Source of the DNA: Prevotellaceae bacterium
GTDB taxonomy: Bacteria > Bacteroidota > Bacteroidia > Bacteroidales > UBA932
Direction of reading: 5' to 3'
Assembly (NCBI GenBank): GCA_031274595.1
Contig: JAISPX010000173.1
Coordinates: 1 to 42,534 of the forward strand
DNA length: 42,534 bases
Position 1 is the first letter of the stretch. Every line of letters starts with the position of its first letter. The notes below the pieces were generated by a model, which saw only the letters and a program-made list of their open reading frames with translations, searched no databases and had not been told where the DNA came from. Made by a program: the position numbers and the translations under genes. Positions 7,593 through 34,291 of the stretch are shown piece after piece.

Positions 7593-7599
7593 TTCTTTA

Positions 7600-11577: not shown

Positions 11578-11613
11578 AATTATATTTTTTTTAATTTAAT
11601 ATTCATTTAATGT

Positions 11614-14600
11614 TTAGTATTTAATATTTATTCCAAAGATAAAATATCGAGATGGAGGAACTGCCGGTCCGATTGTTAACTGACGGGCTTGAGCAATTGC
11701 TCCTGTGGCATATCCATCAACAAATGTTTGCGAACCGTATCCTGTGGGTTCGGGGTCTAATCCGCCTGCTTTTACATAAGGAGAGAACAGAGTGCATACA
11801 TTATCAACAGTAATATAAGCGCGAAGCGATTTAAGTCCTAATGATTTAATCCATTTATTAGGTAAATCGTATCCTAATGTAATGGTTCTTATTTTGAAAA
11901 AAGATGCATCAAAATAACCATATACGGAAGGATAGGGAGGATAATCTCCGTTGCCTGTTACGCCAGGGAATTCATTGCTGGGATTTGTTTCTGTCCAGTA
12001 ATTTACTTTAATTCCGTTTCTTCTGCCGTTCATTTGGTTTACATAACTTTGTCCCTGATGTATGGAACTTACCAGCATACCTCCGACTTTTCCGTAAGTA
12101 ACTAACGTCAAATCGAATCCTTTGTAATAAAAGCGATTAGACCATCCAAATTCAAAATCAGGTTCAAATGACCCTATTATCTGTTTGTCCAAGTCGGTAA
12201 TCTGGTTATCCTTGTTTACATCTTCAATATGCGAGCGTCCTGGGAATGCTCCATATACAGCAGCTTCATCTTCTTCTCCAAGTTGCCATATACCTATTTG
12301 CTTATAGTCGTAAATTACGTCTATAGGAGAGCCTACAAACCAGCCGTTACCTTCATTTCTGTCAACACCGGCATTCAGCGCTATAATTTTACTTCTGTTC
12401 AAATAAAAATTGACATCCATATCCCAGTTAAAACCTTTCTCACTCTTGAAATTTACAGAATGTACGCTCAGTTCTATTCCTTTATTTTGTGTTTGTCCTA
12501 CATTGTTAAGATAATTTGAAAGAATACCTGTGGTATAAGGCAATGCTTGTTCTAATAATATTTTCTTTGTCTGTTGAAAATACAAATCTATAGAACCTGT
12601 TATTCTATTATTCAGGAATCCGAAATCCACACCCATGCTGTAAGAATTTGTATATTCCCAATCCAAGTTATCATTTTTCAGATTCATTTTATAATAACCA
12701 TAAGCGCCCACAGCGCCGAAGTTATAATAGTTTGGAGTTAACTGGACAAGAGTAGAATACGGAGGAACAGCCTCATTTGACGTTTCGCCGTATCCGCCTC
12801 TGATTTTAAGGTTGCTTAGCCATGATACATCAGCCAAGAATTTTTCCTTGTTTATATTCCAGCCTGCCGATATTGATTTATACAGATGCCATTGATGTCC
12901 GGGAGATAATACGGACGAACCATCATACCTGCCCGTAAGAGTAAGCATATATTTATCATCGTATGTGTAACTTCCTCGCAGCATGAATGAAGCCAAGCGT
13001 CTTCCTGGGTCGGCTTGAAGTCTTGGATCTATCGTTATCGCTTCATTTGAGAGTCCAAGGTTGTAATAATATATATAATTAGCAACCATATCTCTGGCTG
13101 TTGCACTTGTGTTCCACGAACTATTTTCCTGAACTCCTGCCAGCCCTGTAAAACTTAAACGATGTTTATCGGCTATGGTTTTATCATAATAAATCAAATT
13201 ATCTATTAAATATCCCGTTCCTTTTGTATTATTTACGGTAGCATCCGAAATTCCGCCGTTTTTCATTGGGCTGTCAGTATCATAAAAACTGCCGTAGTTG
13301 TCATGCCAATAATTTAAACCTGCATTTAAGCGATATCTAAGTCCGTCTGTAATTTTAACTTCCGCATAAAAAGTATTGAAAGAATTGAAGCGCGTGCGCT
13401 GTTCTTTCCATGTATTTGGGTCTTTTATCAATAAAGGATTACGCATTGGGTCGGCATTATATGCTTCTCTTGGAGCCACATTAATACTTCCATCGGCATT
13501 ATAGGGGTCGGTAAACGGCGTGAGCGTTAATATACTGTACATCACATTAGCGGATTCTCCATCTGTAATACCATACGTATTTAAGGAATTTAATCCTATT
13601 TTTACTCTGTCGTTTATTTTCTGGTCAACAGTAACGCGCAGTGAAAGCCTTTGGAAAAGAGGTCCGGGTACAATAGCCGATTCTTTATAATATCCTCCGC
13701 TCAAAGAAAGTTGCGTATATTCGCTTCCCGAATTTATAGTAACTTCATGATTTGTTCGATACGATGTTTGGTACATTAAATCCTGCCAGTCGGTTGATCT
13801 TCCAGCATCATACATAGCCTGTTCATCTGCATACAGGTTACCGCCATTGTAATTGGATGCTCTTCTGAGTTCCAAAAATTCTTCAGGGCTGTACAGAGTG
13901 TATCTTTTAGCAGCCGAGCCAACTCCAAAATAGCCGTTGTAGGCTACTTGCGGTCTTTCTGTTAGAATTCCTCTGTACGTTGTAATAATTATTACTCCGT
14001 TTGCGCCTCTTGCGCCGTAAATAGCCGAAGAAGAAGCATCTTTAAGGATGTCAAGCGATTTAATGTTGTTTGGGTCAATGTCGTTGATTGTACCATCAAA
14101 CGGCACGCCATCAAGAACAATCAGAGGGTCATTACTTGCGCTCAGTGAACGTGTACCTCTGATACGAAGTTGCGGAACCTGCCCGGGTCGGGTAGATGTT
14201 TGCTGTACATTCACCCCTGCAATACGCCCCTGCATAGCCTGAGAAATATTGGCAACAGGAACTTCCTTTATAGTCTGTTCTCCTACAGAGGTAATTGCTC
14301 CCGTAACGTCTATTTTCCGCTGGGTTCCATATCCAACCACCACTAATTCATCAATCAGGCTGACATCCTTATCCATGATAACATTGATAATACTTCTGCG
14401 CCCAACTTGTTCCGTCATGGTTTTATAGCCAATATACGAAAAAGCAATTTCTGCGTTTTCATTTGGCACCACAATAGAATAATTTCCATCCGCATCTGTT
14501 GTAACAGCAACTGTGCTGCCTGTTACAACTACGGTTACCCCAATCAATGGTCCGTCAACATCGCTTACCGTTCCTTTGATTGTCAATCTACCTTCTGTTT

Positions 14601-14694
14601 GAGCCAACAAACCCGAAGGAATTAAAAACATCATGCAGGCGACTATTTGCAATAGTTTTTTTAAGCCTGACTTTCTTTGTTTGATTAAATACAT
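11614..14694 (-). CDS. SusC/RagA-family TonB-dependent transporter
   Basis: A 1026-aa outer-membrane receptor. It has a signal peptide to about residue 32 (GLLAQ), a carboxypeptidase-regulatory-like domain at about 37-108 (IKGTVSDVDG...GNYSIVV...FSYIGY), and a SusC TonB-box region DELVVVGYGTQRK at 115-127. The plug at about 130-240 has LRIRGTRSL, IVLDGVPFDG, LKDASSSAIYGARGANGVIIITT, followed by the barrel ending in FGINIKY. It imports oligosaccharides using TonB energy together with the adjacent SusD. It is the first gene of the xylan locus. No consensus TAnnTTTG promoter is evident directly upstream, but a perfect 20-bp palindrome lies 53 bp before the start codon. No sensor or anti-sigma signalling domain is present. 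Confidence 0.96.
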   Translation of the reverse strand: MYLIKQRKSGLKKLLQIVACMMFLIPSGLLAQTEGRLTIKGTVSDVDGPLIGVTVVVTGSTVAVTTDADGNYSIVVPNENAEIAFSYIGYKTMTEQVGRRSIINVIMDKDVSLIDELVVVGYGTQRKIDVTGAITSVGEQTIKEVPVANISQAMQGRIAGVNVQQTSTRPGQVPQLRIRGTRSLSASNDPLIVLDGVPFDGTINDIDPNNIKSLDILKDASSSAIYGARGANGVIIITTYRGILTERPQVAYNGYFGVGSAAKRYTLYSPEEFLELRRASNYNGGNLYADEQAMYDAGRSTDWQDLMYQTSYRTNHEVTINSGSEYTQLSLSGGYYKESAIVPGPLFQRLSLRVTVDQKINDRVKIGLNSLNTYGITDGESANVMYSILTLTPFTDPYNADGSINVAPREAYNADPMRNPLLIKDPNTWKEQRTRFNSFNTFYAEVKITDGLRYRLNAGLNYWHDNYGSFYDTDSPMKNGGISDATVNNTKGTGYLIDNLIYYDKTIADKHRLSFTGLAGVQENSSWNTSATARDMVANYIYYYNLGLSNEAITIDPRLQADPGRRLASFMLRGSYTYDDKYMLTLTGRYDGSSVLSPGHQWHLYKSISAGWNINKEKFLADVSWLSNLKIRGGYGETSNEAVPPYSTLVQLTPNYYNFGAVGAYGYYKMNLKNDNLDWEYTNSYSMGVDFGFLNNRITGSIDLYFQQTKKILLEQALPYTTGILSNYLNNVGQTQNKGIELSVHSVNFKSEKGFNWDMDVNFYLNRSKIIALNAGVDRNEGNGWFVGSPIDVIYDYKQIGIWQLGEEDEAAVYGAFPGRSHIEDVNKDNQITDLDKQIIGSFEPDFEFGWSNRFYYKGFDLTLVTYGKVGGMLVSSIHQGQSYVNQMNGRRNGIKVNYWTETNPSNEFPGVTGNGDYPPYPSVYGYFDASFFKIRTITLGYDLPNKWIKSLGLKSLRAYITVDNVCTLFSPYVKAGGLDPEPTGYGSQTFVDGYATGAIAQARQLTIGPAVPPSRYFIFGINIKY

Positions 14695-15114: not shown

Positions 15115-15780
15115 TCACGCTATTACTGCGCTGATAATAGATTCGCTCCATGGACCTGGCAGGTTGCGGGTGTTCATCCAGCGGAAGCGGTAGTAAACGG
15201 TTTTGCCAACATCTTCCAGTGGATAATCAATCACCATAGGCGAACGGCTTGAAAAGCCTGCATAAGACCAGTCATTGTCGGTTGCGGGCGGGTCGCCGCC
15301 TATCTTGTGCCATGCTTCAAAGCCTTTGGCATGCTCGGGCTTGGTTTTGCCTGTAAGTTTGCCCGCTTTCACGCGCAACGTGTGCCGCTGATGCACCGAA
15401 AAGTCAACTTCGCCTACGGGCATATCCGTAATTGGCGGCGCAGGAGTGGGCTTGGTGTCATGCACAGGAAGCCCCATGTGCCGGCGGTCTTCGTCGGTAA
15501 CAGCCGAGTTATAAGTCAAATGTTCCTTCACAAATTGCCTCACCGCATGTTTGAGCGTATCGCGCGATTCGTTTTTTGCAATCACATCGGCTCTGCCGCG
15601 GTTTGGGTCTTCTGATTTAGCATACGCCGTATCGTAAGCGACGATAAGAGTTTCAACCAATGCAACTTCATTGGGACTAATGTTCCATGCGCTTGCATGA
15701 GCGCTAACGTAGGTAAAAAGAATTTTCACCCATTCCAAAAATTTCCCGTCTGATTTGGGGATGTAATCTTGTTTTGGCAT
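15115..15780 (-). CDS. Conserved-type hypothetical protein with Fn3-like C-terminus
   Basis: A 221-aa protein without a signal peptide. The N-terminal half (to about residue 120) is helical, starting MPKQDYIPKSDGKFLEWVK, with the basic stretch AKNESRDTLKHAVRQFVKEHL. A proline-rich linker (PTPAPP, about 130) follows. The C-terminal half looks like a small beta sandwich with GKTVYYRFRWMNTRNLPGPWSE, reminiscent of fibronectin type III edge strands. I recognise the general architecture from hypothetical proteins in Bacteroidetes, but no function is known to me. It has richer GC than its surroundings and sits in repeat-laden DNA downstream of an inverted-repeat promoter cassette, which could control it together with the heptad-repeat ORF. 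The start is chosen at 15780 because the family-like MPKQDYIP start follows a clear gap. Confidence 0.75.
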   Translation of the reverse strand: MPKQDYIPKSDGKFLEWVKILFTYVSAHASAWNISPNEVALVETLIVAYDTAYAKSEDPNRGRADVIAKNESRDTLKHAVRQFVKEHLTYNSAVTDEDRRHMGLPVHDTKPTPAPPITDMPVGEVDFSVHQRHTLRVKAGKLTGKTKPEHAKGFEAWHKIGGDPPATDNDWSYAGFSSRSPMVIDYPLEDVGKTVYYRFRWMNTRNLPGPWSESIISAVIA

Positions 15781-16337
15781 CTTTTTTTGTTTTTAAATTT
15801 ATTACACAATATGTTTAGAAAGAATAATCCATACTTGCAGAAAGTACCAGTCAACCAGACTTTGAGTGGAGTCAACCAGACCTTGGGTGGAGTCAACCAA
15901 ACCTTGAGTGGAGTCAACCAAACCTTGGGTGGAGTCAACCAAACCTTGAGTGGAGTCAACCAGACTTTGGGTGGAGTCAACCAAACCTTGGGTGGAGTCA
16001 ACCAAACCTTGAGTGGAGTCAACCAAACCTTGGGTGGAGTCAACCAGACTTTGGGTGGAGTCAACCAAACCTTGGGTGGAGCCAACCAAACCTTGGGTGG
16101 AGTCAACCAAACCTTGCGGATATTACTGTAAATATTAAATACTTTCTGTGAAAATTTAGATGTCAAAAACAATAGATTGGGCGCTAAGCCGCCAAAACCG
16201 GACAAATTTTCTAATTCATTAAGAAACATCTGTTGATTTGAGTTAAGGCAGGTTATTTCCTGCGCAAGCCTTGTTTGTGCCGACACAAAGCCCACAGGTA
16301 AAAACGTTCTAAACTCAACAACAACAAGGTTTTTCAT
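15726..16337 (-). CDS. Putative heptad-repeat ORF of unknown function
   Basis: An open frame of 203 aa. About 70 non-repeated residues begin MKNLVVVEFRTFLPVGF. About 13 copies of the heptapeptide KVWLTPP or KVWLTPL follow, then a basic tail. The repeats come from a 21-bp minisatellite, which keeps every frame open, so the long frame is weak evidence for translation. Its last 55 bp overlap the start of the 221-aa gene. Base changes among units are silent at two variable sites in this frame but change Pro to Leu at a third. The start codon lies 28 bp from the inner gene-facing arm of an inverted-repeat promoter cassette, in the same arrangement as SusC at 34044, which supports a real transcription unit. 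No homology is recognised. Confidence 0.4.
   Translation of the reverse strand: MKNLVVVEFRTFLPVGFVSAQTRLAQEITCLNSNQQMFLNELENLSGFGGLAPNLLFLTSKFSQKVFNIYSNIRKVWLTPPKVWLAPPKVWLTPPKVWLTPPKVWLTPLKVWLTPPKVWLTPPKVWLTPLKVWLTPPKVWLTPLKVWLTPPKVWLTPLKVWLTGTFCKYGLFFLNILCNKFKNKKRCQNKITSPNQTGNFWNG
15850..16120. repeat. 21-bp tandem repeat (minisatellite), 12 full copies plus a partial
   Basis: The plus-strand unit is GTCAACCAAACCTTGGGTGG plus A. Twelve consecutive units cover 15850-16101, followed by a degenerate 19-bp thirteenth unit. Units vary at only a few positions: CAA/CAG, ACC/ACT, GGT/AGT and one GTC/GCC. Because 21 is a multiple of three, the reading VNQTLGG (plus), KVWLTPP and STQGLVD (minus) are all uninterrupted across the array. 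There are no spacers, so it is not a CRISPR array. High unit identity suggests recent expansion and likely copy-number variation. Confidence 0.95.
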
Positions 16338-16365: not shown

Positions 16366-16392
16366 TTTGTCCCATAATTTACATTATGTTAA
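16366..16392 (+). repeat. Inverted-repeat arm, Xer/dif-like, left arm of cassette A
   Basis: A 27-bp arm whose exact reverse complement is at 16498-16524. It can be parsed as an 11-bp half-site TTGTCCCATAA, a 6-bp centre TTTACA and an 11-bp half-site TTATGTTAAGT. Compared with E. coli dif as I remember it, the XerD-type half matches 10 of 11 bases and the whole site about 20 of 28. Function as a recombination site is an inference. Confidence 0.7.
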
Positions 16393-16497
16393 GTTTTAAA
16401 TACTGCAATATCAGCAAGATAAGCATTTTGGCACGCAAAAAATTGAAAAGTTAAAATTTGCAACTTATTGGAAATTAGATTAACTTTGCGCCGAAAG
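16393..16497 (+). promoter_or_regulatory. Putative invertible promoter segment A (pointing away from the heptad-repeat ORF)
   Basis: This 105-bp segment lies exactly between two perfect inverted arms. It holds a full Bacteroidetes promoter on the plus strand: TTTG at 16457-16460, 20 bp, then TAACTTTG at 16481-16488, with initiation expected near 16495. Facing right, it leads into 500 bp without a plus-strand gene. If inverted, it would fire left across the left arm into the ORF starting at 16337 and the 221-aa gene. Its sequence is shared at both ends with segments near 25430 and 34150, but its middle is not. Promoter identity is strong; invertibility is inferred from architecture. Confidence 0.6.
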
Positions 16498-16524
16498 TTA
16501 ACATAATGTAAATTATGGGACAAA
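16498..16524 (-). repeat. Inverted-repeat arm, Xer/dif-like, right arm of cassette A
   Basis: The exact reverse complement of 16366-16392, 27 of 27 bases. The outer flank (about 16525-16547, ending AAAGTGTTAAAAT) is shared with the other two cassettes, while the outer flank of the left arm is not. The right side is therefore a constant anchor distal to the controlled gene. Confidence 0.7.
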
Positions 16525-24093: not shown

Positions 24094-24657
24094 TTACACT
24101 GTCATTATTTCTTTTTCTTTTTTTTCTAATACCTTGTCGATTTTTTTGTTTACTTCGTCTGTTGCTTTTTGGATTTCAATCTCAAAATCTTTTACCAAAT
24201 CTTCCGAAAGTCCATCTTTTTGAAGTTTTTTAATTGATTCAATAGAATCTCGGCGCAAATTGCGAACGGCAACCCGAGCGGCTTCGCCTTCGGTGCGGGT
24301 TTTTTTAACTAATTCCTTGCGGCGTTCTTCGGTTAACGGTGGAACGTTTATGCGAATTGTTTCGCCGTTGTTTTGAGGATTAAATCCAATATTTGCAACA
24401 AGAATTGCTTTTTCAATCACAGGAATCATTGATTTTTCCCATGGTTGAATACTTATTGTGCGCGCATCGGGAGATGTAACGCTTCCTATCTGAGATAATG
24501 GCGTTGGCGTGCCGTAATAATTAACTTCGATACTTGCAAGCATTGCCGGATTTGCTTTGCCTGCGCGTATTGAAATCAGTTCTGTTTCGAGAAAATCGAC
24601 AGCTTTTTGCATTTTGTTTTTGGTTGTCTCAATTATTGCTTTTGCTTTTAATTCCAT
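24094..24657 (-). CDS. frr: Ribosome recycling factor
   Basis: A 187-aa protein of exactly the usual RRF length. It shows the family motifs ELISIRAGKANPAML, YYGTPTPLSQIGSV, the highly conserved ARTISIQPWEKSMI, GFNPQNNGETIRINVPPLTEERRKELVK, and the C-terminal helix KDGLSEDLVKDFEIEIQKATD. With EF-G it splits the post-termination ribosome. It lies 38 bp after pyrH on the same strand, the common bacterial pyrH-frr arrangement, and shares its promoter. Confidence 0.98.
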   Translation of the reverse strand: MELKAKAIIETTKNKMQKAVDFLETELISIRAGKANPAMLASIEVNYYGTPTPLSQIGSVTSPDARTISIQPWEKSMIPVIEKAILVANIGFNPQNNGETIRINVPPLTEERRKELVKKTRTEGEAARVAVRNLRRDSIESIKKLQKDGLSEDLVKDFEIEIQKATDEVNKKIDKVLEKKEKEIMTV

Positions 24658-24695
24658 AGTGTGTTATTTTAATTTATTTTATTTTTATGTGTGTA

Positions 24696-25400
24696 TTAAT
24701 TATTTACTATTGTTCCGATTTTTTCGCCGTTTATTATTTTGGCAAGATTTCCTTTCCCGTTAATATCGAATACAATTATCGGCAAATTATTTTCCCTGCA
24801 AAGGGTAAATGCGGTTAAATCCATTACTTTAAGATTTTTGGCGTATGCTTCGCCGAATGTAATCGTATCGAATTTTATTGCCGATTTGTCAATTTCAGGG
24901 TCGGCTGAATAAATTCCGTTTACTCGTGTTCCTTTAATCAAAACATCGCATTTGGTTTCTATTGCGCGTAGCGCCGCTGCCGAATCGGTAGTGAAAAACG
25001 GATTGCCTGTGCCGCCTGCAATTATAACTACATATCCGTTGTTCATGTATTCAATGGCTTTGTGGTGCGAATAATATTCTCCTATTGGTTCCATGCAAAT
25101 TGATGTAAGCGTTTTTGTTTTTTGCCCGATTGATATTAACGCAGATTGGATTGCAATGCTGTTGATTACTGTTGCCAACATTCCCATTTGGTCGCCTTTT
25201 ACACGGTCAAAACCGCGCTGCTGTCCGCTTAATCCGCGAAAAATATTTCCGCCGCCGACAACAACGGCAATTTGCGTTTTATTTTGTGCTGCAATTTTTA
25301 TATCTTCGGCATATCGCAAAAGATTACTTTCGTTAATGCTGCATTTATCGGAGCCTTGCAAGGCTTCGCCGCTAAGTTTCAACAATATCCTTTTATACAT
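24696..25400 (-). CDS. pyrH: UMP kinase
   Basis: A 234-aa amino-acid-kinase-fold enzyme that phosphorylates UMP to UDP. Motifs are KRILLKLSGEALQG (ATP site), IAVVVGGGNIFRGL, the UMP-binding GDQMGMLATVINSIAIQSAL, IIAGGTGNPFFTTDSAAALRA, and LKVMDLTAFTLCRENNLPIIVFDINGKGNL. The length and order fit bacterial PyrH. It is transcribed from a perfect TTTG-N20-TAACTTTG promoter directly upstream. That promoter is identical in layout to the ones inside the two inverted-repeat cassettes, but here it faces the gene. Confidence 0.98.
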   Translation of the reverse strand: MYKRILLKLSGEALQGSDKCSINESNLLRYAEDIKIAAQNKTQIAVVVGGGNIFRGLSGQQRGFDRVKGDQMGMLATVINSIAIQSALISIGQKTKTLTSICMEPIGEYYSHHKAIEYMNNGYVVIIAGGTGNPFFTTDSAAALRAIETKCDVLIKGTRVNGIYSADPEIDKSAIKFDTITFGEAYAKNLKVMDLTAFTLCRENNLPIIVFDINGKGNLAKIINGEKIGTIVNN

Positions 25401-25425
25401 TTTTGACAGATATTTTATTTTTGCG

Positions 25426-25457
25426 CAAAGTTAATCTATTTTTCAATAAGTTGCAAA
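25426..25457 (-). promoter_or_regulatory. Promoter of pyrH-frr (cassette C, gene-facing orientation)
   Basis: On the minus strand, TTTG (25454-25457), 20 bp and TAACTTTG (25426-25433) give a perfect consensus promoter. Initiation near 25420 leaves a leader of about 20 nt. The 20-bp spacer differs from those of cassettes A and B by one or two bases. The distance from the -7 box to the upstream Xer-like arm is 88 bp, the same as in cassettes A and B. The gene-proximal arm is absent, so the promoter would be fixed. Confidence 0.8.
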
Positions 25458-25521
25458 TTTTATCTTTTCAATTTTTTATGCTCTAAAATCGTTATTCCGT
25501 TGATGAACTCGTATTTAAAAC

Positions 25522-25547
25522 TTAACATAATGTAAATTATGGGACAA
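25522..25547 (-). repeat. Solo Xer/dif-like arm upstream of the pyrH promoter
   Basis: The arm is identical to the distal arms at 16498 and 34212 across TTAACATAATG, TAAATTATGG and GACAA. Its inner neighbour GTATTTAAAAC is the reverse complement of the inner neighbour of the left arms of A and B, exactly as expected for the inverted state of the cassette. Its outer flank matches the outer flank of their right arms. No partner arm lies next to the pyrH start codon. Confidence 0.7.
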
Positions 25548-25749: not shown

Positions 25750-26853
25750 TTATTGTTTTTCAAACGTCATATAATAATAGCGTATTTTATCGCCTGTTCC
25801 ATTGCCTATTGGCGCAGTTGTTGCTCCTGTTGTGGAAGAAGTGCCTTTCACTAAGTATCTAAAAGAGATGCCTATTGTTGTATAACCAGTCCATTTGCCA
25901 TTATCAGTGAAACTAAAAGCAAGGTGTCCTGAATCTAAATTTGCGCCTGTGCTAACCAATCCGTAACCACTGCCAATAGAATATGAATTTGACTCTGACC
26001 TTGTTACAGCTATCCATATATCCATATCTTTTACAGGGTCAAATCCCAATGCCTGCGTAACAATTGACAATCCTGTTGCGCCAGAGTAACCGATAGGAAT
26101 AAGGAAGTTATCATCGTACGCAGGTTGTAATATACCTTTTAGATAAAAACTTTCTCCTGCTACTTTTTCTACCAATTCAACATTTATTGAGAACGATGGC
26201 GTAGTGCTATTGTAAGTATTACTATATGTCATTACATAAGTACCGAGATAATCCGCATATTCCAGATAATTTTTTTCCTGATTAACTGTAACCGTTTCTT
26301 CAAACAGTTCCACTGTTCCGATTTGTAGCACTACATTAGCGCTACGTGTTTCGGTAAGACTTGGATTAGCCTGTACTGTTAATACAATTTCATCTGTTTC
26401 GACTGTACAACTTACCCAGTTTTCGTCAACCGACTTGAATATTACGGGAACATCATAATTATATGATATGCGTATTTCTTCGCCCTTGCCTGAAGCGGTA
26501 ACCGTCCTTGTTATACGGATGCCATATTGCGTTACCGAAACATAATTTACTCTATTACCCGATTTTATTGTTACTCTCGCCGTGCGTCCCGATATAGACA
26601 TATTCGGTTCGACTGTTGCCGTAATTTTCTGTCCGCTAACGGTTAATTGACACCAGTCTTTGTCGGATACAGCCGTAAAATCAACTGATTCTGCCACAAT
26701 AATATCGCCTGTGCCTCCAATTGCCGAAAAAATCACATTCGAATTGTCTATTTTTACCAAAACATCTTCAAACTCTTTGTATTCTGTCGAGTCGCTGCAT
26801 CCTGTCAAAAATATTGACAGCAGCAATATTTGTATTATATAAATCTTTTTCAT
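25750..26853 (-). CDS. BACON-domain lipoprotein
   Basis: A 367-aa lipoprotein from the preferred start (MKKIYIIQ, lipobox LTGC, Cys19). An alternative ATG at 26880 would overlap the previous gene and lengthen the signal unnaturally. Two BACON-like beta domains follow, about 28-120 (DKDWCQLTVSGQ, GRTARVTIKSGN, VSVTQYG) and 121-200 (DENWVSCTVETDE, TRSANVVLQIG, VTVNQEK). An unassigned beta-rich C-terminal domain of about 165 residues begins LGTYVMTYS. BACON modules are thought to bind carbohydrate or mucin, or to act as spacers on the cell surface. It ends an operon of SusC, SusD, peptidase and DUF4302 genes, so it is probably a surface binding component. Confidence 0.8.
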   Translation of the reverse strand: MKKIYIIQILLLSIFLTGCSDSTEYKEFEDVLVKIDNSNVIFSAIGGTGDIIVAESVDFTAVSDKDWCQLTVSGQKITATVEPNMSISGRTARVTIKSGNRVNYVSVTQYGIRITRTVTASGKGEEIRISYNYDVPVIFKSVDENWVSCTVETDEIVLTVQANPSLTETRSANVVLQIGTVELFEETVTVNQEKNYLEYADYLGTYVMTYSNTYNSTTPSFSINVELVEKVAGESFYLKGILQPAYDDNFLIPIGYSGATGLSIVTQALGFDPVKDMDIWIAVTRSESNSYSIGSGYGLVSTGANLDSGHLAFSFTDNGKWTGYTTIGISFRYLVKGTSSTTGATTAPIGNGTGDKIRYYYMTFEKQ

Positions 26854-26872
26854 ATATCTTAATTTTAATTTA

Positions 26873-28213
26873 TTAATCAATTTTTTTAAGAATTAAATTT
26901 CTGAAACCATACAATCCTCCAATGTTGCCTGTATAATTACCCTGACTTACACCGTTTGAATCCATCAGTCTGAGAAGAATTCCATCGGCTTTGTAAGTTC
27001 CCCAAATCTTGTTGTCTTCAAATGTAATTATTCTGTCGCCTCCTGTATCTTCGTTCCAAACCCCGACAAGCCCTGCGCCATTGGTTATTGACGTGGATAT
27101 ATAACCCGCTATTGTAGCATAAGGACATACTCTTATATCATATCCGCTTGAATGTACGGCAGAGTTGTTTCCTATTATTGATATAACGCCTTTTAGCGAA
27201 TTGAAATTTACAATAATACCAGAGAAGTTAAACATTTTATCGCATACCATGCGTAAAGTCGAATTCTTTTTGATTTGTACAAATTCAACAGTATCCATTC
27301 TGGCAGTTTGCCATGCTGATGAGTTCCTTGGTTGATATTGGAGTTCCCATCTGCCTAAAAAATCTTCATATTTTATCTGAAAGTCGGGAGGAAAATACAT
27401 TCTAAAATAAGCGTTCACGCCTTGATCTGTACATGTGTATTTTTCTTCGGCATCGTCCCATATAAAATTTTGCATTGTTACCTCATTGTAGATAAACGGC
27501 TCGTAAAGTCTTATTCCATCTGTTGTAAAAGCATAACTTATTACATCTATAACGTCTTGTCCATCATATTCAAGATTAAAAGTTCTGTCAATTACTGATG
27601 CAATACCTATAGTTTCATCGTTTGCAACAAATTCGAACATTACATAGGATGATAATTTGTCGGCATTAACGGCAACCTCGGCAAGATGAGTATCGGGATT
27701 AATGTTGTTTACATTTCGGCGCAACGTCATTTTGTTTCCGCCTTTTTTGCCTTTTATCTGAATTTCATCCTGTTCGGCTTTCATAATTATAAATTCATAA
27801 TCGCCTTCCAATCCGTTGATGTCAGCTTGAGATGGCTCGCTGAAAAAATGCATTACCTCGTTATATTCCGAAAAGGCAAGTATTGGTCCTTGTTCCATAA
27901 ATACCGAAAACTCCGAAGTGTAGTTTTGGCGAGGAGGCAGATTTGTTTCTATTTCGCAACTTACGGTAGCCAAACCGTCGTTAGTAAACTTCACATACAT
28001 TGCATATCCGCCTACTTTGTGATTGAGTTCGGGATAATAATCCAAATACCAGCCGTTTTCGGCGCTTACAAGCAATTCGCTGTATTGCGCAACCGCTTTT
28101 TGACCTCTTGCAGCCGCCGTATCGTCAAATATGTTTTCTTCGTCCTTTACGCATGATTGCATAATAAACAGCGGCAGTATTAATAAATAAATTATATTTT
28201 TTATTAGTTTCAT
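26873..28213 (-). CDS. DUF4302-family lipoprotein
   Basis: A 446-aa lipoprotein. The preferred start is the internal ATG at 28213 (MKLIKNIIYLL, lipobox ending QSC, Cys21); the frame opens at 28222. The N-terminal region VAQYSELLVSAENGWYLDYYPE followed by GGYAMYVKFTNDGLATVSCE is the recognisable DUF4302 signature. The rest is beta-rich with no enzymatic motif. Its function is unknown. DUF4302 genes commonly accompany RagA/RagB pairs and Mx1-type metallopeptidases in Bacteroidetes, as here. It starts 13 bp after the peptidase stop, so it is translated from the same transcript. It is probably exposed at the outer membrane. Confidence 0.85.
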   Translation of the reverse strand: MKLIKNIIYLLILPLFIMQSCVKDEENIFDDTAAARGQKAVAQYSELLVSAENGWYLDYYPELNHKVGGYAMYVKFTNDGLATVSCEIETNLPPRQNYTSEFSVFMEQGPILAFSEYNEVMHFFSEPSQADINGLEGDYEFIIMKAEQDEIQIKGKKGGNKMTLRRNVNNINPDTHLAEVAVNADKLSSYVMFEFVANDETIGIASVIDRTFNLEYDGQDVIDVISYAFTTDGIRLYEPFIYNEVTMQNFIWDDAEEKYTCTDQGVNAYFRMYFPPDFQIKYEDFLGRWELQYQPRNSSAWQTARMDTVEFVQIKKNSTLRMVCDKMFNFSGIIVNFNSLKGVISIIGNNSAVHSSGYDIRVCPYATIAGYISTSITNGAGLVGVWNEDTGGDRIITFEDNKIWGTYKADGILLRLMDSNGVSQGNYTGNIGGLYGFRNLILKKID

Positions 28214-28226
28214 AATATACATATTT

Positions 28227-29111
28227 TTAAAGATTTAACAAATCCAGTTGATTTAATGTTGACGCTCTTAATTCGAAAACGCGGCGCAGTTCATCGAGTT
28301 CTATATTCCATGAATTTCGCAGATAAGATTTCACAATTTCGAGTTTCTGATTTATAATTGCGGCGCCAGAAGCGCCAGCCTGCGCTAAAACGTTGTCCCA
28401 ATATGCCTGACCAAGTACGGTATATCTTGCTATTATTTCAACAAAATCTTCATTAGGTTCTTGGCGCGAATAACGGCTTACAAAACCCAACTGAAAAGCA
28501 ATCAATTCGGTTGCCGAGCTAGAACTCCAGTCGCTGCCTATATAATCATTATTTGATATTGCTCTAAATTCGGCAGGATAATCTTTGGTTTGATGCAAAA
28601 TGTGAGCAAACTCATGAAACATTGTTCTCAAATAAGAGTCTGTCAGTTGCGCAACCGTTACATTTGCAGGGTTTAACTCATTGATTCTGTAGAGAGTTAT
28701 CTTTAAGCCGCCTTCGGCAGTTCCCAAGCGTACAGTATTATTGGAATTGTATGCTCCCGAACCAATAAGGTGAATAACTCTTGGAATATATGTTCGTGTA
28801 AAATCCACGCCGGCTACCTGATCATATACTTCAAGCCATAAATGTTTTATTATTTTTGCTATGGCTATGGAGTTTTTTAGATTTGCAGGAACCAAATCGT
28901 AAGTAATATCCGATTCAATATCTTCCATTTTGTATTTGAAACCTATATTGTAAGGATATGTATAATTAGACAAAATCCAGTTGTCGAATGCTGTAAGCAT
29001 TGCAGGGTCTGTATCTTTGAATACGCTTTCGCTGTTCAGTTTTTCTTCGCTACACGACAAAGATATTGCCGCTGCTATAATTGTTATTAAAAATAATTTT
29101 ATATTTTTCAT
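28227..29111 (-). CDS. Putative zinc-binding metallopeptidase lipoprotein (Peptidase_Mx1)
   Basis: A 294-aa lipoprotein (lipobox ending SLSC, Cys20). The zinc motif is HEFAH (His166, Glu167, His170) followed by His173 in ILHQ. A downstream acidic motif NEDFVEIIARY (about 220-230) probably supplies the third ligand. These features match the putative zinc-binding metallopeptidase family found beside SusC/SusD pairs. It may cut peptides or glycoproteins at the surface or in the periplasm before import by the linked transporter. It is 32 bp after SusD and 13 bp before DUF4302. Activity has not been read from sequence beyond the intact HExxH motif. Confidence 0.88.
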   Translation of the reverse strand: MKNIKLFLITIIAAAISLSCSEEKLNSESVFKDTDPAMLTAFDNWILSNYTYPYNIGFKYKMEDIESDITYDLVPANLKNSIAIAKIIKHLWLEVYDQVAGVDFTRTYIPRVIHLIGSGAYNSNNTVRLGTAEGGLKITLYRINELNPANVTVAQLTDSYLRTMFHEFAHILHQTKDYPAEFRAISNNDYIGSDWSSSSATELIAFQLGFVSRYSRQEPNEDFVEIIARYTVLGQAYWDNVLAQAGASGAAIINQKLEIVKSYLRNSWNIELDELRRVFELRASTLNQLDLLNL

Positions 29112-29143
29112 GATATTTTATATTTTAATCGTTTCATAATAAA

Positions 29144-30712
29144 TTATCTCGGATTAGGTTCAAGCCCTGCGTCTATAACAGATGCCGGAAGTTGAATGGC
29201 TCTGCGCGGGTCGTCTATTGTCAATTCATCGGTTACCGTAACACTGTTATTTGCATCAAGGTATCTGCGATATATCACAATACCAAAACGTTTTACGTCG
29301 AACCAGCGTAAACCTTCGGCTATTGTTTCTATGCGGCGAAAATGCAGCAGACAGTGCAAAAAGTTTTCCTGCTCTGCCGATACAATAGGAATTTCGGGAT
29401 GAAGTTCTTTTTTTATCGTAGGATCATCGGGTTTGTAGTAAGGCAAATTACCGTAAAAATCATTTATTAATTGGCGCGACAGCGTTACGCTCGATTTTAC
29501 ATGCCGCGACATCCACAAAGCCAAATCAGCCGTAGCTTCATCATACTGTTCGAGCATAATGTAGGCTTCGGCTCTACAAAGCAGAGATTCGTCGGCATGT
29601 AATGCTACATAAACGGTTCTGAGAAAACCTATTCCTGCCACAGGGTCGGTATATTCAAATATATACGGAAGTTTTGGAGTTGCTATGTATCCTCCTGAGC
29701 CTGCATTATAAGAAAGTGTTGGCAAGTTATATATTCCTTCAACAAATATCCCCCAGGGACCGGCGGCTCTATTTGATTCTGAACCTGCCAAATATCTGGA
29801 ATGCATGTATTTTTTGCCTGTTGAATAATTTCCCAATATAGTACTCAATCTGGAATATGCAGTCATTAACAAGAAATTTGCATTATGGTCGGGTTTTATA
29901 TAATCGTTGGCAATAGAAGCATAGTTCTGTACAAGCGAAGGAATATGGCTGAAATCGCGCAATATTCTTTCGGGATTTTCGCCAAGAACTTCATTTACAC
30001 ATTGAATAACCTTGTCGTATTTCCTGTAGAACAGATAAAAACGGGCGGCAAAAGCATAAGCGGCTCTGCGGTTGAAATGATATTTGGGAACGGTGTACAT
30101 GTTATCGTCTATCACAGGAAGTCCTTCTTCAATATCAAGTTCTATTTTTCTGTATATTTCGGCAACCGATTCGCGCTCGTATGCGGGTTTTACCGTTGTT
30201 TCGGGTTCTTTCATATAAACAATGCCGAGATCGGTTTCACCATTAGCCGTAGAATAATTATTTGCAAACACATTAACTAAATAAAAATGATGGAATGCTC
30301 TAATCATAAGGGCTTCGCCGCGCTGTGGATTCAATCGTTCGGGATTCCCCAATTTTTCTATTTCGGCAAGAGCCTGATTGGCTGTTGCTATTGCAAGATA
30401 ATATTTTTCCCATATATATTTTGGAGACTCATTGTTAACTTCTTTAATGTCTGCCCATGCATACATTTCATCCTGAAGTTTATTATAAGCAGTAAGCCCA
30501 TTGTCCACGTGGTCAATATTATCCGACATCATTTCTGTCATAAGTACAAACAAGTGGTCTGCATATCCGCTTACCAAGAGGTTTGTAATTTTTTCGTCTG
30601 TGTCTAATTCAAGTCTGTTATCAGGCATTTCGTCAAGAAATTTATCGCACGAAACGTTAAACATTAATAATATAACAGACGCTATTGATATAAGATATTT
30701 TTTCATATTCAT
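29144..30712 (-). CDS. SusD/RagB-family lipoprotein (second pair)
   Basis: A 522-aa SusD homologue. The signal ends NVSC before DKFLDEMPDNRLELD, a standard SusD mature start. Helical repeats include GEALMIRAFHHFYLVNVFANNY and RRAAYAFAARFYLFYRKY. The C-terminal motif HFRRIETIAEGLRWFDVKRFGI is characteristic. It should sit on the outer face of the linked SusC and capture the substrate, which may be peptide or glycoprotein rather than plain polysaccharide, given the peptidase and the absence of glycosidases. A two-residue shorter start (MKKYLIS) is equally likely. It begins 5 bp after SusC, so translation is coupled. Confidence 0.95.
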   Translation of the reverse strand: MNMKKYLISIASVILLMFNVSCDKFLDEMPDNRLELDTDEKITNLLVSGYADHLFVLMTEMMSDNIDHVDNGLTAYNKLQDEMYAWADIKEVNNESPKYIWEKYYLAIATANQALAEIEKLGNPERLNPQRGEALMIRAFHHFYLVNVFANNYSTANGETDLGIVYMKEPETTVKPAYERESVAEIYRKIELDIEEGLPVIDDNMYTVPKYHFNRRAAYAFAARFYLFYRKYDKVIQCVNEVLGENPERILRDFSHIPSLVQNYASIANDYIKPDHNANFLLMTAYSRLSTILGNYSTGKKYMHSRYLAGSESNRAAGPWGIFVEGIYNLPTLSYNAGSGGYIATPKLPYIFEYTDPVAGIGFLRTVYVALHADESLLCRAEAYIMLEQYDEATADLALWMSRHVKSSVTLSRQLINDFYGNLPYYKPDDPTIKKELHPEIPIVSAEQENFLHCLLHFRRIETIAEGLRWFDVKRFGIVIYRRYLDANNSVTVTDELTIDDPRRAIQLPASVIDAGLEPNPR

Positions 30713-30717
30713 AAATT

Positions 30718-33700
30718 TTATAATCCTAATTTTAATGTCATTGTAATTTGTTTTGGTATAGGCAGAGCAACGCCTCCCGAACCAAAAAATTCAGGGTCTT
30801 GTCCGTTAAGTTTTGAGTCGGCATACAGTAAACACAGGTTTGTAACCTGAATTTTGGCTGTAAGGTTTTTAAATCCTAATGGAGAAACCCAGTTTGAAGG
30901 AAAATCATAAGATAATGATATTTCTTTAAGACGTATGAAACCGCCATCGGCTACGCGCGCATCCGAATAATTGTACGCATTGTAAGCATAAGTTAAATGA
31001 GATATATCTCTATACTGGCGATAAGTTGGGATTACGGGGATATTGGTATAAGCCTCATCTCCAGGCAACACCCAGCGGTTTGCAAATTCTTTGGGCATTG
31101 AGCGTACATCCGAATATGCTACTCTAAATCTTGGGTCAAGTCGAATTTTATTGCCAAACGAATAGGTAATAAATATGTTCAATCTGAAATTTTTGTAGTT
31201 GAACAAATTACCCAAAGAGCCGAAGTGAGTAGGCTCTGTTGGTCCCTCGTATTTCAAGAATTTTATTTTATCAGGATCTCTTTCCTGAAAATTAATTTCG
31301 GCAACTGTTATATCCCCATTTTCGTTAAGGAAGGTAGGAAGTCCATCTTCATTCAGACCCATGAAAGGTATGGAAAATAAACCTCTGTACGGATAACCCT
31401 GAATACCGAAACCGTTTCCTGTAATAAGATCTATAACTCTTTTTGTTGTATATAGTTCGGTTATTTCGGTTCTGCTGTAAGAAAAAATAAGACTTGTTGT
31501 CCATTTAAAATCTTTTGTATTGATATTTTTTGTTGAAAGAGAAAATTCAATACCTCTTGATTTCATTGTCGCCACATTTGCGTACTTGTCCACATCTCCA
31601 CCAACGCCTGTTGTTGCAATGGGTCCAATAAGGTCAAAATTGCTGCGCCAGTACCAGTCGGTGCCAAAACTTATTCTGTTGTTCAAAAATCCAAGGTCAA
31701 GCCCAACATTCAACTCATGTTTTTTTTCGTAGGTAAGTTGACTGTTTTCCAAATCGGATATTACCAAAGCCGTTTCCTTGCTGCCTTCGCTGGGTCTCCA
31801 CGGACGCGAACTGTTTATAACAATCTGCGAATTTGTAACAAAACGCGGGCCTCTGTCGGCTGTCAAACTGTATGATGCTTTCACGGCAGCATGCGATAAC
31901 ACGGATTCGAGTTTTTCAAAGAATGTTTCACGATAAATATTCCACAAGCCCGCTATGTTCCATGTGGGCAACCAACGCGCCGAGCGCGCTTTTCCCAATT
32001 TATTTGAGCCTTCGTAACGAAATGTTCCGTTTATTGTATATTTTGTTTTGTACGAATATGTAGCCAAAGCAAAAAATGCAATATTGCGAGACCTTGATAT
32101 TCCATTGGTAAAATAGTCGGTATTTTCTTCAACTCCTTTTTTAAATACTTGGTAAGCATAATTTGGAACATCTCCCATCGAATATTGCCGTCCCCAACCT
32201 CTGAACCACGAGTTATCGCGGTCAACAGAATTTATTTCCATACCGCCGAAGAAATTGGTAATATGAATATCGTTGAATGTTTTGTTCCATGTAAGCGTTG
32301 TACGCAAGTCGTATCCCAGCATTTTATTGTCGGCGCGATTGTATATACCTCCGTTTGGCAATACCGTAATGGGAAGAGCATAAGGTATATCAGGGTCGGT
32401 GTAAAGGAACGGATTTTCATCTCTTATAACAGCATCCGGCATGGCTCTGTAAGCCAAAGCCTGATTTGCATAATCTTTAATATTATGTTCTACCGAAGTT
32501 GCCGAATGTTTAATAGCGCCCAAAAGAGCCAATTCCAAATTTTTCATCGGTTTCCACTTCAATTCTCCTTGAAATTTCAAATCGGTTACGTTTATATCCA
32601 TGTAATTATTGTCTAATTCGTGATTAATATTGAACTCGGCATAATTACGCGTATAATATTCGTTAGGACTCATTGTGCGCGATGTGTTTAGCGCATAACT
32701 GTAAGGATTTATGTCAAAATCGCGTTTTACTTCACCATATACTGCATCAATGTCCTGACTTAATGTACCCGGAGCTGTTTGTTTACGATACGAGGCGTTG
32801 GAAATCAGGTTCAGCGACAAATTTTTATATATGTTAAAAGTAACATTGGTGTTTGCCGTATAACGATTTACCGAACTTGCTTTTGTCCATCCCGGATCAA
32901 TCAATGCGCTTATAGAAGCATAATAAGTTGTTTTATCCGTACCTCCCGACATGCTTACAGAATGTGATTGCATTATACTTGGTTTAAACAGTTCGTTAAA
33001 CCAATCGGTGTTTCGCATTTCGGCTTGGCGCAGATAAGCGTTTCTGGCTTCTTCGGTATTTGATAAGGCAAATGTTCCTGTTACAGGATTGTAAGTGTTT
33101 ATCAGCTGATACATTTTACCGTAAACTCCGCTTTCTCTGTCTCTCAATGTTGAAGAAAGATTTAGCCAGCCTTTTTGTTGCATTTCCTGATAAACTCCCA
33201 TTTGTTCCTGAGAATTCATAATATTAAAATCGGCATAACGCGGCACCATGCGTATGGTATATTCTCCGTTGTAGTTAATACTGCTTGCGCCCGATTTACC
33301 TTTTTTTGTTGTAACAACAATAACTCCCGCCATAGCTCGCGCTCCATAAATAGAAGTTGCCGAGCCGTCTTTTAGAATTTCAAAACTTTCAATATCATCG
33401 GCGTTAAGTCCTGCAATAGCCGAACTTATCAACGTTTCGGCATCACCCGATGAAAGTCCGTCAGAATCGACTTCAATTACATCTTCCATTACAATTCCAT
33501 CAACAACCCACAAGGGTTTTGAACTTCCGTAAATAGAAGTTGCTCCGCGCACTCTGATTTTTGGTGCTGTTCCAAAAGTCCCGGAAACGTTTTGTACCGA
33601 AACACCGGCAGAACGTCCTTCCAATCCGCGACTTATATCCGCAAGTCCGTTTAGTTTTGCCGTTTCCGCAGATATATGGTCAGAAGCGCCGGTAAACAGC

Positions 33701-34044
33701 CGTTTGTCCATTTTTGTCATACCTGTTACTACAGCTTCTTCCAAAACAGTTGTGGAAGACTTCATGCGTACATTTATCTCCTTTTTTCCGTTTATTGCCA
33801 CTTCTATTGTTTCATAGCCGATAAACGAAAAAACTAATACTCCCGTAGCGGGAGCGGTTATTGAAAATGAGCCGTTATTGTTTGTCGTTGAACTTGTCGT
33901 AGTTCCTTTTACAATAACCGACACATAGGATAAAGCTTCGCCTGTTGCATCATCAATTACAAGTCCTGTAATCTTATCTTGCGAATAGGCTGTGCAAATC
34001 CCAATCACCATACAAATAACTAATAATAGTAAGTTCCTTTTCAT
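30718..34044 (-). CDS. SusC/RagA-family TonB-dependent transporter (second pair)
   Basis: An 1108-aa outer-membrane transporter. It has a signal peptide to about residue 21 (CTAYS) and a carboxypeptidase-regulatory-like domain at about 24-95 (ITGLVIDDATGEALSYVSVIVKG, FSFIGYETI). A degenerate TonB-box region EEAVVTGM lies at 102-109, and the plug has IRVRGATSIYG, WVVDGIVMED and ILKDGSATSIYGARAMAGVIVVTT. It heads a five-gene operon. The start codon lies 33 bp from the gene-proximal arm of inverted-repeat cassette B, whose promoter currently points away. No other minus-strand TAnnTTTG box is evident between the gene and that cassette, so the operon appears to be OFF in this assembly. No regulator gene is adjacent. 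Confidence 0.96.
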   Translation of the reverse strand: MKRNLLLLVICMVIGICTAYSQDKITGLVIDDATGEALSYVSVIVKGTTTSSTTNNNGSFSITAPATGVLVFSFIGYETIEVAINGKKEINVRMKSSTTVLEEAVVTGMTKMDKRLFTGASDHISAETAKLNGLADISRGLEGRSAGVSVQNVSGTFGTAPKIRVRGATSIYGSSKPLWVVDGIVMEDVIEVDSDGLSSGDAETLISSAIAGLNADDIESFEILKDGSATSIYGARAMAGVIVVTTKKGKSGASSINYNGEYTIRMVPRYADFNIMNSQEQMGVYQEMQQKGWLNLSSTLRDRESGVYGKMYQLINTYNPVTGTFALSNTEEARNAYLRQAEMRNTDWFNELFKPSIMQSHSVSMSGGTDKTTYYASISALIDPGWTKASSVNRYTANTNVTFNIYKNLSLNLISNASYRKQTAPGTLSQDIDAVYGEVKRDFDINPYSYALNTSRTMSPNEYYTRNYAEFNINHELDNNYMDINVTDLKFQGELKWKPMKNLELALLGAIKHSATSVEHNIKDYANQALAYRAMPDAVIRDENPFLYTDPDIPYALPITVLPNGGIYNRADNKMLGYDLRTTLTWNKTFNDIHITNFFGGMEINSVDRDNSWFRGWGRQYSMGDVPNYAYQVFKKGVEENTDYFTNGISRSRNIAFFALATYSYKTKYTINGTFRYEGSNKLGKARSARWLPTWNIAGLWNIYRETFFEKLESVLSHAAVKASYSLTADRGPRFVTNSQIVINSSRPWRPSEGSKETALVISDLENSQLTYEKKHELNVGLDLGFLNNRISFGTDWYWRSNFDLIGPIATTGVGGDVDKYANVATMKSRGIEFSLSTKNINTKDFKWTTSLIFSYSRTEITELYTTKRVIDLITGNGFGIQGYPYRGLFSIPFMGLNEDGLPTFLNENGDITVAEINFQERDPDKIKFLKYEGPTEPTHFGSLGNLFNYKNFRLNIFITYSFGNKIRLDPRFRVAYSDVRSMPKEFANRWVLPGDEAYTNIPVIPTYRQYRDISHLTYAYNAYNYSDARVADGGFIRLKEISLSYDFPSNWVSPLGFKNLTAKIQVTNLCLLYADSKLNGQDPEFFGSGGVALPIPKQITMTLKLGL

Positions 34045-34076: not shown

Positions 34077-34106
34077 AATTTTGTCCCATAATTTACATTA
34101 TGTTAA
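34077..34106 (+). repeat. Inverted-repeat arm, Xer/dif-like, left (SusC-proximal) arm of cassette B
   Basis: A 30-bp arm, perfectly inverted at 34212-34241. It has the same half-sites and TTTACA centre as the arm at 16366. Its outer side is the SusC leader, which shows no clear similarity to the leader at cassette A. Confidence 0.72.
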
Positions 34107-34211
34107 GTTTTAAATACAAGGTAATCAGTGAAATGATGATTTTTGAGGGGCAAAAATCAAAAAGTTAAAATTTGCAACTTATTGAAAATTAGATTAACTT
34201 TGTCCCGAAAA
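34107..34211 (+). promoter_or_regulatory. Putative invertible promoter segment B (OFF orientation relative to SusC)
   Basis: A 105-bp segment, the same length as in cassette A, enclosed by perfect 30-bp inverted arms. It carries a plus-strand promoter TTTG (34171-34174), 20 bp, TAACTTTG (34195-34202), with initiation expected near 34209. This orientation drives transcription away from SusC and antisense into the wbqC 3' end. Inversion would place the same promoter facing SusC with a leader of roughly 60 nt. Invertible promoters controlling SusC/SusD genes are established in Bacteroides fragilis. Inversion at this site is inferred, not observed. Confidence 0.65.
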
Positions 34212-34241
34212 TTAACATAATGTAAATTATGGGACAAAATT
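34212..34241 (-). repeat. Inverted-repeat arm, Xer/dif-like, right (distal) arm of cassette B
   Basis: The reverse complement of 34077-34106, 30 of 30 bases. Its outer flank to about 34290 is shared in part with the flanks at 16525 and 25548, and a stretch of it recurs at 248-279. Confidence 0.72.
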
Positions 34242-34291
34242 TTTTTCGGAAGTGTTAAAATCATTAACCATTTCTTAATAGCGGTTTGGTC

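Follow-up and report, generated by a model that had tools for sequence, protein, structure and literature searches.

Invertible promoters have been described in Bacteroides fragilis, where Mpi, Tsr19 and Tsr0667 act as master invertases and SusC/SusD genes are among the targets (PMC4747536). In Bacteroides, TAnnTTTG is the consensus for the -7 box (PMC4747536). It is already known that one master invertase can serve many promoters, that dif-like sites can invert and that a Xer-type enzyme can take part in phase variation. In the literature searched we found no report of a genome-wide promoter set with dif-like arms, and within that literature dif-like promoter arms are new. Here we describe such a set, starting from an element upstream of a susC operon in a Prevotellaceae bacterium. 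The window, i.e. the whole stretch of DNA analysed, is 42,534 nucleotides long (contig JAISPX010000173.1) and belongs to a genome, here called G000, that is 87% complete in 205 contigs.

The promoter element upstream of the susC operon

A preliminary description of the window had proposed a phase-variable promoter at 34077-34241, with perfect 30-bp inverted arms enclosing 105 bp. A base-by-base check bears this out, placing the arms at 34077-34106 and 34212-34241; when extended, they reach 34 nt at 97%. The gene-proximal arm holds a 28-bp dif-like site, TTGTCCCATAA-TTTACA-TTATGTTAAGT, at 34081-34108 on the plus strand, and the gene-distal arm holds its counterpart, TTGTCCCATAA-TTTACA-TTATGTTAATT, at 34210-34237 on the minus strand. 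The putatively invertible interior lies between them at 34109-34209 (plus strand) and carries a predicted promoter, TTTG-N20-TAACTTTG, at 34171-34202. In brief, TTTG occupies 34171-34174 on the plus strand, followed by a 20-bp spacer and TAACTTTG at 34195-34202.

The susC gene starts at 34044 on the minus strand, with 32 bp between its ATG and the near arm. As the promoter is on the plus strand, it is directed away from susC, and we therefore consider the element to be OFF in the assembly. The claims that this promoter is complete, that it faces away from susC and that no other minus-strand TAnnTTTG box lies between arm and gene all hold; the last was checked over the whole 32-bp gap. A promoter that lies between inverted repeats and adjoins a gene start is the arrangement of Bacteroidales invertible promoters. 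On the gene-distal side, a conserved outer motif, TTTTAACACTTC, is found at 34249-34260 on the minus strand, and this motif keeps its position when the interior turns. Directly outside the outer motif, at 34258-34290, there is a short dispersed TTAACCATTTCTTAATAGYGGTTTGG-like repeat, which recurs in many contigs genome-wide.

The five genes downstream, previously suggested to form a SusC/SusD operon at 25750-34044, make a sensible unit, as their intergenic gaps are at most 32 bp. All are encoded on the minus strand. The first gene encodes a SusC/RagA TonB-dependent receptor (30718-34044, TIGR04056), followed by a SusD-like lipoprotein (29144-30712, PF14322 and PF07980) and a substrate import-associated zinc metallohydrolase lipoprotein (28227-29111, PF15890 and TIGR04549). 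The operon continues with a DUF4302/DUF4987 protein (26873-28222) and ends with a BACON/DUF4987 protein (25750-26880).

A dispersed family of elements in two orientations

Beyond what the preliminary description contained, the window element proved to belong to a dispersed family with dif-like arms and a fixed outer motif, with two more copies in the window itself. A search of the own genome gave approximately 20 copies. Fifteen of these are intact with two arms, and all 15 measure exactly 157 bp from outer arm end to outer arm end. Every intact copy adjoins a gene start on one side, usually 30-60 nt away, and the side opposite the gene start carries the outer motif. Inverted pairs of the arm core are present in all 11 genomes of this uncultured genus, with 4-17 pairs per genome, and were not found in any of the 289 other genomes of the family. 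A reversed control pattern gave no matches in the same set of genomes. The 15 own-genome copies of exactly 157 bp, the restriction of the pattern to the genus and the empty control together indicate that the window element is not a product of chance.

The second intact element in the window is located at 16367-16523 on the plus strand, is OFF and adjoins the ORF at 15726-16337, for which no Pfam match was found. This ORF is one of five paralogous ORFs of 156-203 aa located behind OFF elements (the others are at L037, L038, L040 and L045), and their products start with MKNLVVV or MIMKNLVVV. Two neighbouring glycoside hydrolase family 67 genes (5481-9642) follow a SusC/SusD pair (9652-14694), and together they are likely a xylan-use locus near the second element. 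The third copy, at 25417-25547 on the minus strand, is a one-armed remnant with its promoter aimed into an amino-acid-kinase-family gene at 24696-25400. This gene, likely pyrH, is followed by frr, the two lying in the region 24094-25400. The one-armed copy has the look of a former switch that, with one arm lost, now serves housekeeping genes as a fixed promoter.

Using the outer motif as anchor, we assigned 25 elements of the genus as ON, i.e. with the promoter facing the gene, and 34 as OFF, i.e. with the promoter facing away, while 10 were undecided. Among the 35 genus copies with a one-sided gene call, the outer motif, with up to 3 mismatches allowed, lies on the side away from the gene in 30 and on the gene side in one; its distance from the 28-bp arm is mostly 11-12 nt. 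It follows that the motif keeps its place while the interior turns.

Element pairs whose flanks are homologous over 100 bp or more were compared between loci and between species, and the interior was inverted next to a collinear flank in 32 of 102 such comparisons. The clearest pair in the own genome is C7 and C152, where the flank is 90% identical over 442 bp and the interior 98% identical in the opposite direction. SusC of the window operon has orthologues in G010, G005 and G009, with 82%, 83% and 74% amino acid identity respectively. The promoter of the orthologous operon faces the gene in G010 only; it faces away in the window, in G005 and in G009. The element G005:C23 was called ON with a loose promoter pattern, a call that we rejected, as it is OFF once the -7 box TTACTTTCG is allowed. 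Thus both orientations occur at homologous loci with the flanks kept, and the other orientation of the window element does exist among related genomes, at the susC operon of G010. An orthologue (82%) and paralogues that carry the segment inverted within the same flanks support the original reading of the window element as a phase switch that is OFF here.

It should be noted that similar dispersed copies with terminal inverted repeats could also represent a MITE-like repeat family, whose outward promoters were inserted in either direction at random and do not invert. We consider this highly unlikely. Such insertions would stand in no fixed relation to neighbouring genes, but the flanks of the elements are non-random, with a gene start on one side and the outer motif on the other in the proportions given above. 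In addition, the two centres agree within an element, and orthologous sites retain the element with only the interior turned. The arms are also better conserved than the interiors; copies in G000 are 97% identical in the arms and 79% in the interiors (minimum 51%), indicating that the arms are under stronger constraint.

Another explanation is that the orientation differences are rare past events between species or paralogues and that the system is now inactive in G000. The one-armed copy at 25417-25547 and a decayed copy (L054) are consistent with this, and the orientation data are comparisons of loci and species rather than of a population. However, the outer 11-bp half is without mismatch in 29 of 30 arms of G000 despite the diverging interiors, and paralogues with 98-99% identical interiors are already opposite in orientation. 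An inactive system is therefore an unlikely reading, and we infer that inversion still takes place and that the promoter is active.

A few elements have unusual flanks. Among L176, L178 and L184 (contigs C336, C23 and C348 of G004), L163 and L201, some are bordered by the outer motif at either end, and one has a flank of the gene type at each end. Such flanks are as expected of recombination between different elements, or of chimeric assembly close to the ends of contigs.

The dif-like arms and the candidate recombinases

A pattern search for a dif-type site, A[TC]AATTTATATTATGTTAA, gave matches in 26 of 28 genomes, other families included. Matching genomes without elements have one solitary copy each. 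The solitary site of the genus reads TTGTCC[CT]ATAA-TTTATA-TTATGTTAAGT, with TATATA as its centre in G000 and TCTATA in G002; a site of this form was not found in G005 and G006. In G014, a closed genome of the family, the dif-type site is located at a GC-skew sign change, approximately half a chromosome from the other change. The skew of a second closed genome, G021, gave no clear mark at the dif candidate, and dnaA was of no help in placing the origin in either genome. Based on its sequence, its single copy and its GC-skew position in G014, we call the solitary site dif. The sequence TTTAACA, which resembles the outer motif of the elements, is found upstream in the flank of the site at L348 2300-2328 and of the solitary dif loci of several genomes of the genus.

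The gene-proximal arm of the window element is a 28-bp site of 11-6-11 build that resembles the dif of its genome. It differs from the solitary site of G004, G007, G008 and G009 in one base, located in the 6-bp centre (27/28), and from the solitary site of G000 in two bases (26/28). None of 150 arms is equal to the dif of its own genome. Arms of G004, G008, G009 and G010 are as little as one base away from their own dif, in the centre. An XerD-like inner half is combined with a TTTATA centre in one of 95 XerD-like arms, compared with 16 of 55 other arms carrying TTTATA (Fisher p 2.7e-7, a number that is indicative only, the arms being related). In other words, 94 of 95 XerD-like arms have a centre other than TTTATA, and 16 of 17 TTTATA-centred arms have an inner half that is not XerD-like.

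The 6-bp centre is identical between the two arms in 91 of 94 elements and differs in three, whereas within-genome shuffles (n=5000) gave equal centres in 80 elements on average and in 87 at most. For elements without a retrieved sequence, the centres come from the output of the paired-arm search. Equal centres in both arms are a requirement of strand exchange across the centre.

We suggest that the segment very probably inverts by the action of a Xer-type recombinase at the dif-like arms, whichever enzyme this is. In brief, a Xer-family tyrosine recombinase would exchange strands in the 6-bp centre of the two inverted 28-bp arms and thereby flip the 101-bp interior, which would point the promoter towards susC in the ON state and towards the fixed outer motif in the OFF state. 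All 15-20 copies in the genome, each located before another gene, would share one recombinase, and because every copy flips independently, surface proteins would be switched on and off in different combinations.

An Mpi-type serine invertase was considered as well, as many promoters of Bacteroides fragilis are inverted by Mpi (PMC4747536) and a PF00239 protein is encoded in G000. However, PF00239 is absent from G002, G003, G006, G008 and G009, all of which carry elements, and the 11-6-11 layout of the arms is that of Xer-type sites. With serine recombinases missing from these element carriers, we rejected a serine invertase, which now seems extremely improbable.

The most likely candidate for the proposed Xer-type enzyme, to which we give about an even chance, is an orphan tyrosine recombinase of 267 aa (P0001, PF00589) encoded on contig 121 of G000. 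Its catalytic residues R126, K148, H214, R217, H240 and Y249 are invariant. Of the 61 genomes searched, those with an orthologue include 8 of the 11 in the genus and members of two other genera; none was found in G004, G006 and G009, which are 69-83% complete and all carry elements. The protein has 570 public relatives, the best of those listed being 79% identical to the lead sequence of the query alignment. It belongs to a family of hsdS-shufflon recombinases (64-79% identity among 80 public loci listed), which are common in Bacteroidales and Clostridia. The three genomes without the gene and the widespread occurrence of its relatives weaken the view that restriction to the genus settles the orphan as the enzyme.

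An hsdS-like sequence adjoins 65 of the 80 public loci listed, or 65 of 89 when nine loci of the genus are counted, and was found near the orphan gene in none of these nine. Its neighbours in the genus, named partly by inspection, include leuS, ruvA, trpS and gcvT. The arm core CATAATTTACATTATG is found within 3 mismatches in the inverted repeats of 18 of 60 hsdS-type loci, two of them exact, against at most 2 of 60 loci for any of 149 shuffled palindromes. A loose search for arm-like sites near hsdS-type recombinases gave scattered matches. As Xer-type sites generally share a CATAA-N6-TTATG core, the likeness to hsdS-type sites does not single out the orphan.

XerC and XerD, the housekeeping recombinases that act on chromosome dimers, are the next most likely candidate, a possible enzyme that we favour less. 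They would invert the segments at arms that are functional dif-like sites, set apart from true dif by a changed centre or XerD half-site. Recombination at dif by XerCD normally requires FtsK near the terminus, which counts against this explanation. The inner half-sites are also not XerD-like in G001, G003, G005 and G006, and partly not in G002 and G007, and the retention of the orphan recombinase would be left unexplained. On the other hand, XerC and XerD are present; in G000 the models that match them best are those for XerC and XerD, with XerC-type proteins below the XerC cut-off. The single centre base that separates some arms of G004, G008, G009 and G010 from dif, the lack of any arm equal to dif and the near exclusion of TTTATA from XerD-like arms all agree with such sites. 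G009 has neither a detected orphan nor a serine recombinase, yet shows both orientations. Furthermore, pXerC/D sites with identical centres on Acinetobacter plasmids invert reversibly (PMC9947245).

Judged from their sequence, the arms found in G001, G006 and part of G002 and G007 are nearly palindromic and would better fit a single enzyme, and those of G000, G004, G008, G009 and G010 also fit XerC/XerD. We can tentatively envisage that XerC/XerD of the genus run genome-wide phase variation on dif-derived sites, with true dif excluded through a different centre in certain lineages and through a changed XerD half-site in others; at present this seems rather doubtful.

Comparison with known invertible systems

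If a Xer-type recombinase inverts these segments, the genus has turned the sequence of a chromosome-separation site into approximately 15-20 gene switches, many of them preceding surface proteins, and has at the same time kept the real dif separate. The family then offers a test of how Xer-type sites are kept from recombining harmfully with one another, and of the way in which an hsdS-type recombinase could turn into a global promoter invertase.

The elements resemble those of B. fragilis (PMC4747536) in that a short promoter segment lies between inverted repeats, at many loci per genome and at some loci before SusC/SusD genes, with the Bacteroidales TAnnTTTG promoter. Unlike in B. fragilis, the arms in this genus are dif-like 28-bp sites of the Xer type with common centres, a distinction drawn from the descriptions of both systems and not from a direct alignment of arms. 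Two further differences are the fixed outer motif on the side far from the gene and the candidate enzyme, which is of the hsdS-shufflon kind or XerC/XerD.

The orphan recombinase can be likened to hsdS-shufflon tyrosine recombinases such as pneumococcal PsrA (PMC7096588), through its family, which mostly adjoins hsdS, rather than through an alignment with PsrA. The inverted repeats of its relatives hold a similar CATAA-N6-TTATG core. In contrast to hsdS shufflons (PMC7096588), there is no hsdS beside the gene in this genus, and the paired sites flank promoters.

In Ureaplasma parvum a Xer-type recombinase has likewise been proposed to invert surface-antigen loci, in the case of XerC and the mba locus (PMC3599477). 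There, XerC bound the inverted repeats and a second protein, CodV, bound a dif site, and the repeats are not described as copies of dif (PMC3599477). The pXerC/D (pdif) modules of Acinetobacter plasmids share with the present elements inverted dif-like sites of 28 bp, and their inversion is reversible, the active pairs having identical centres (PMC9947245). Those modules carry resistance on plasmids, whereas the elements described here are promoter segments of approximately 100 bp on apparently chromosomal contigs.
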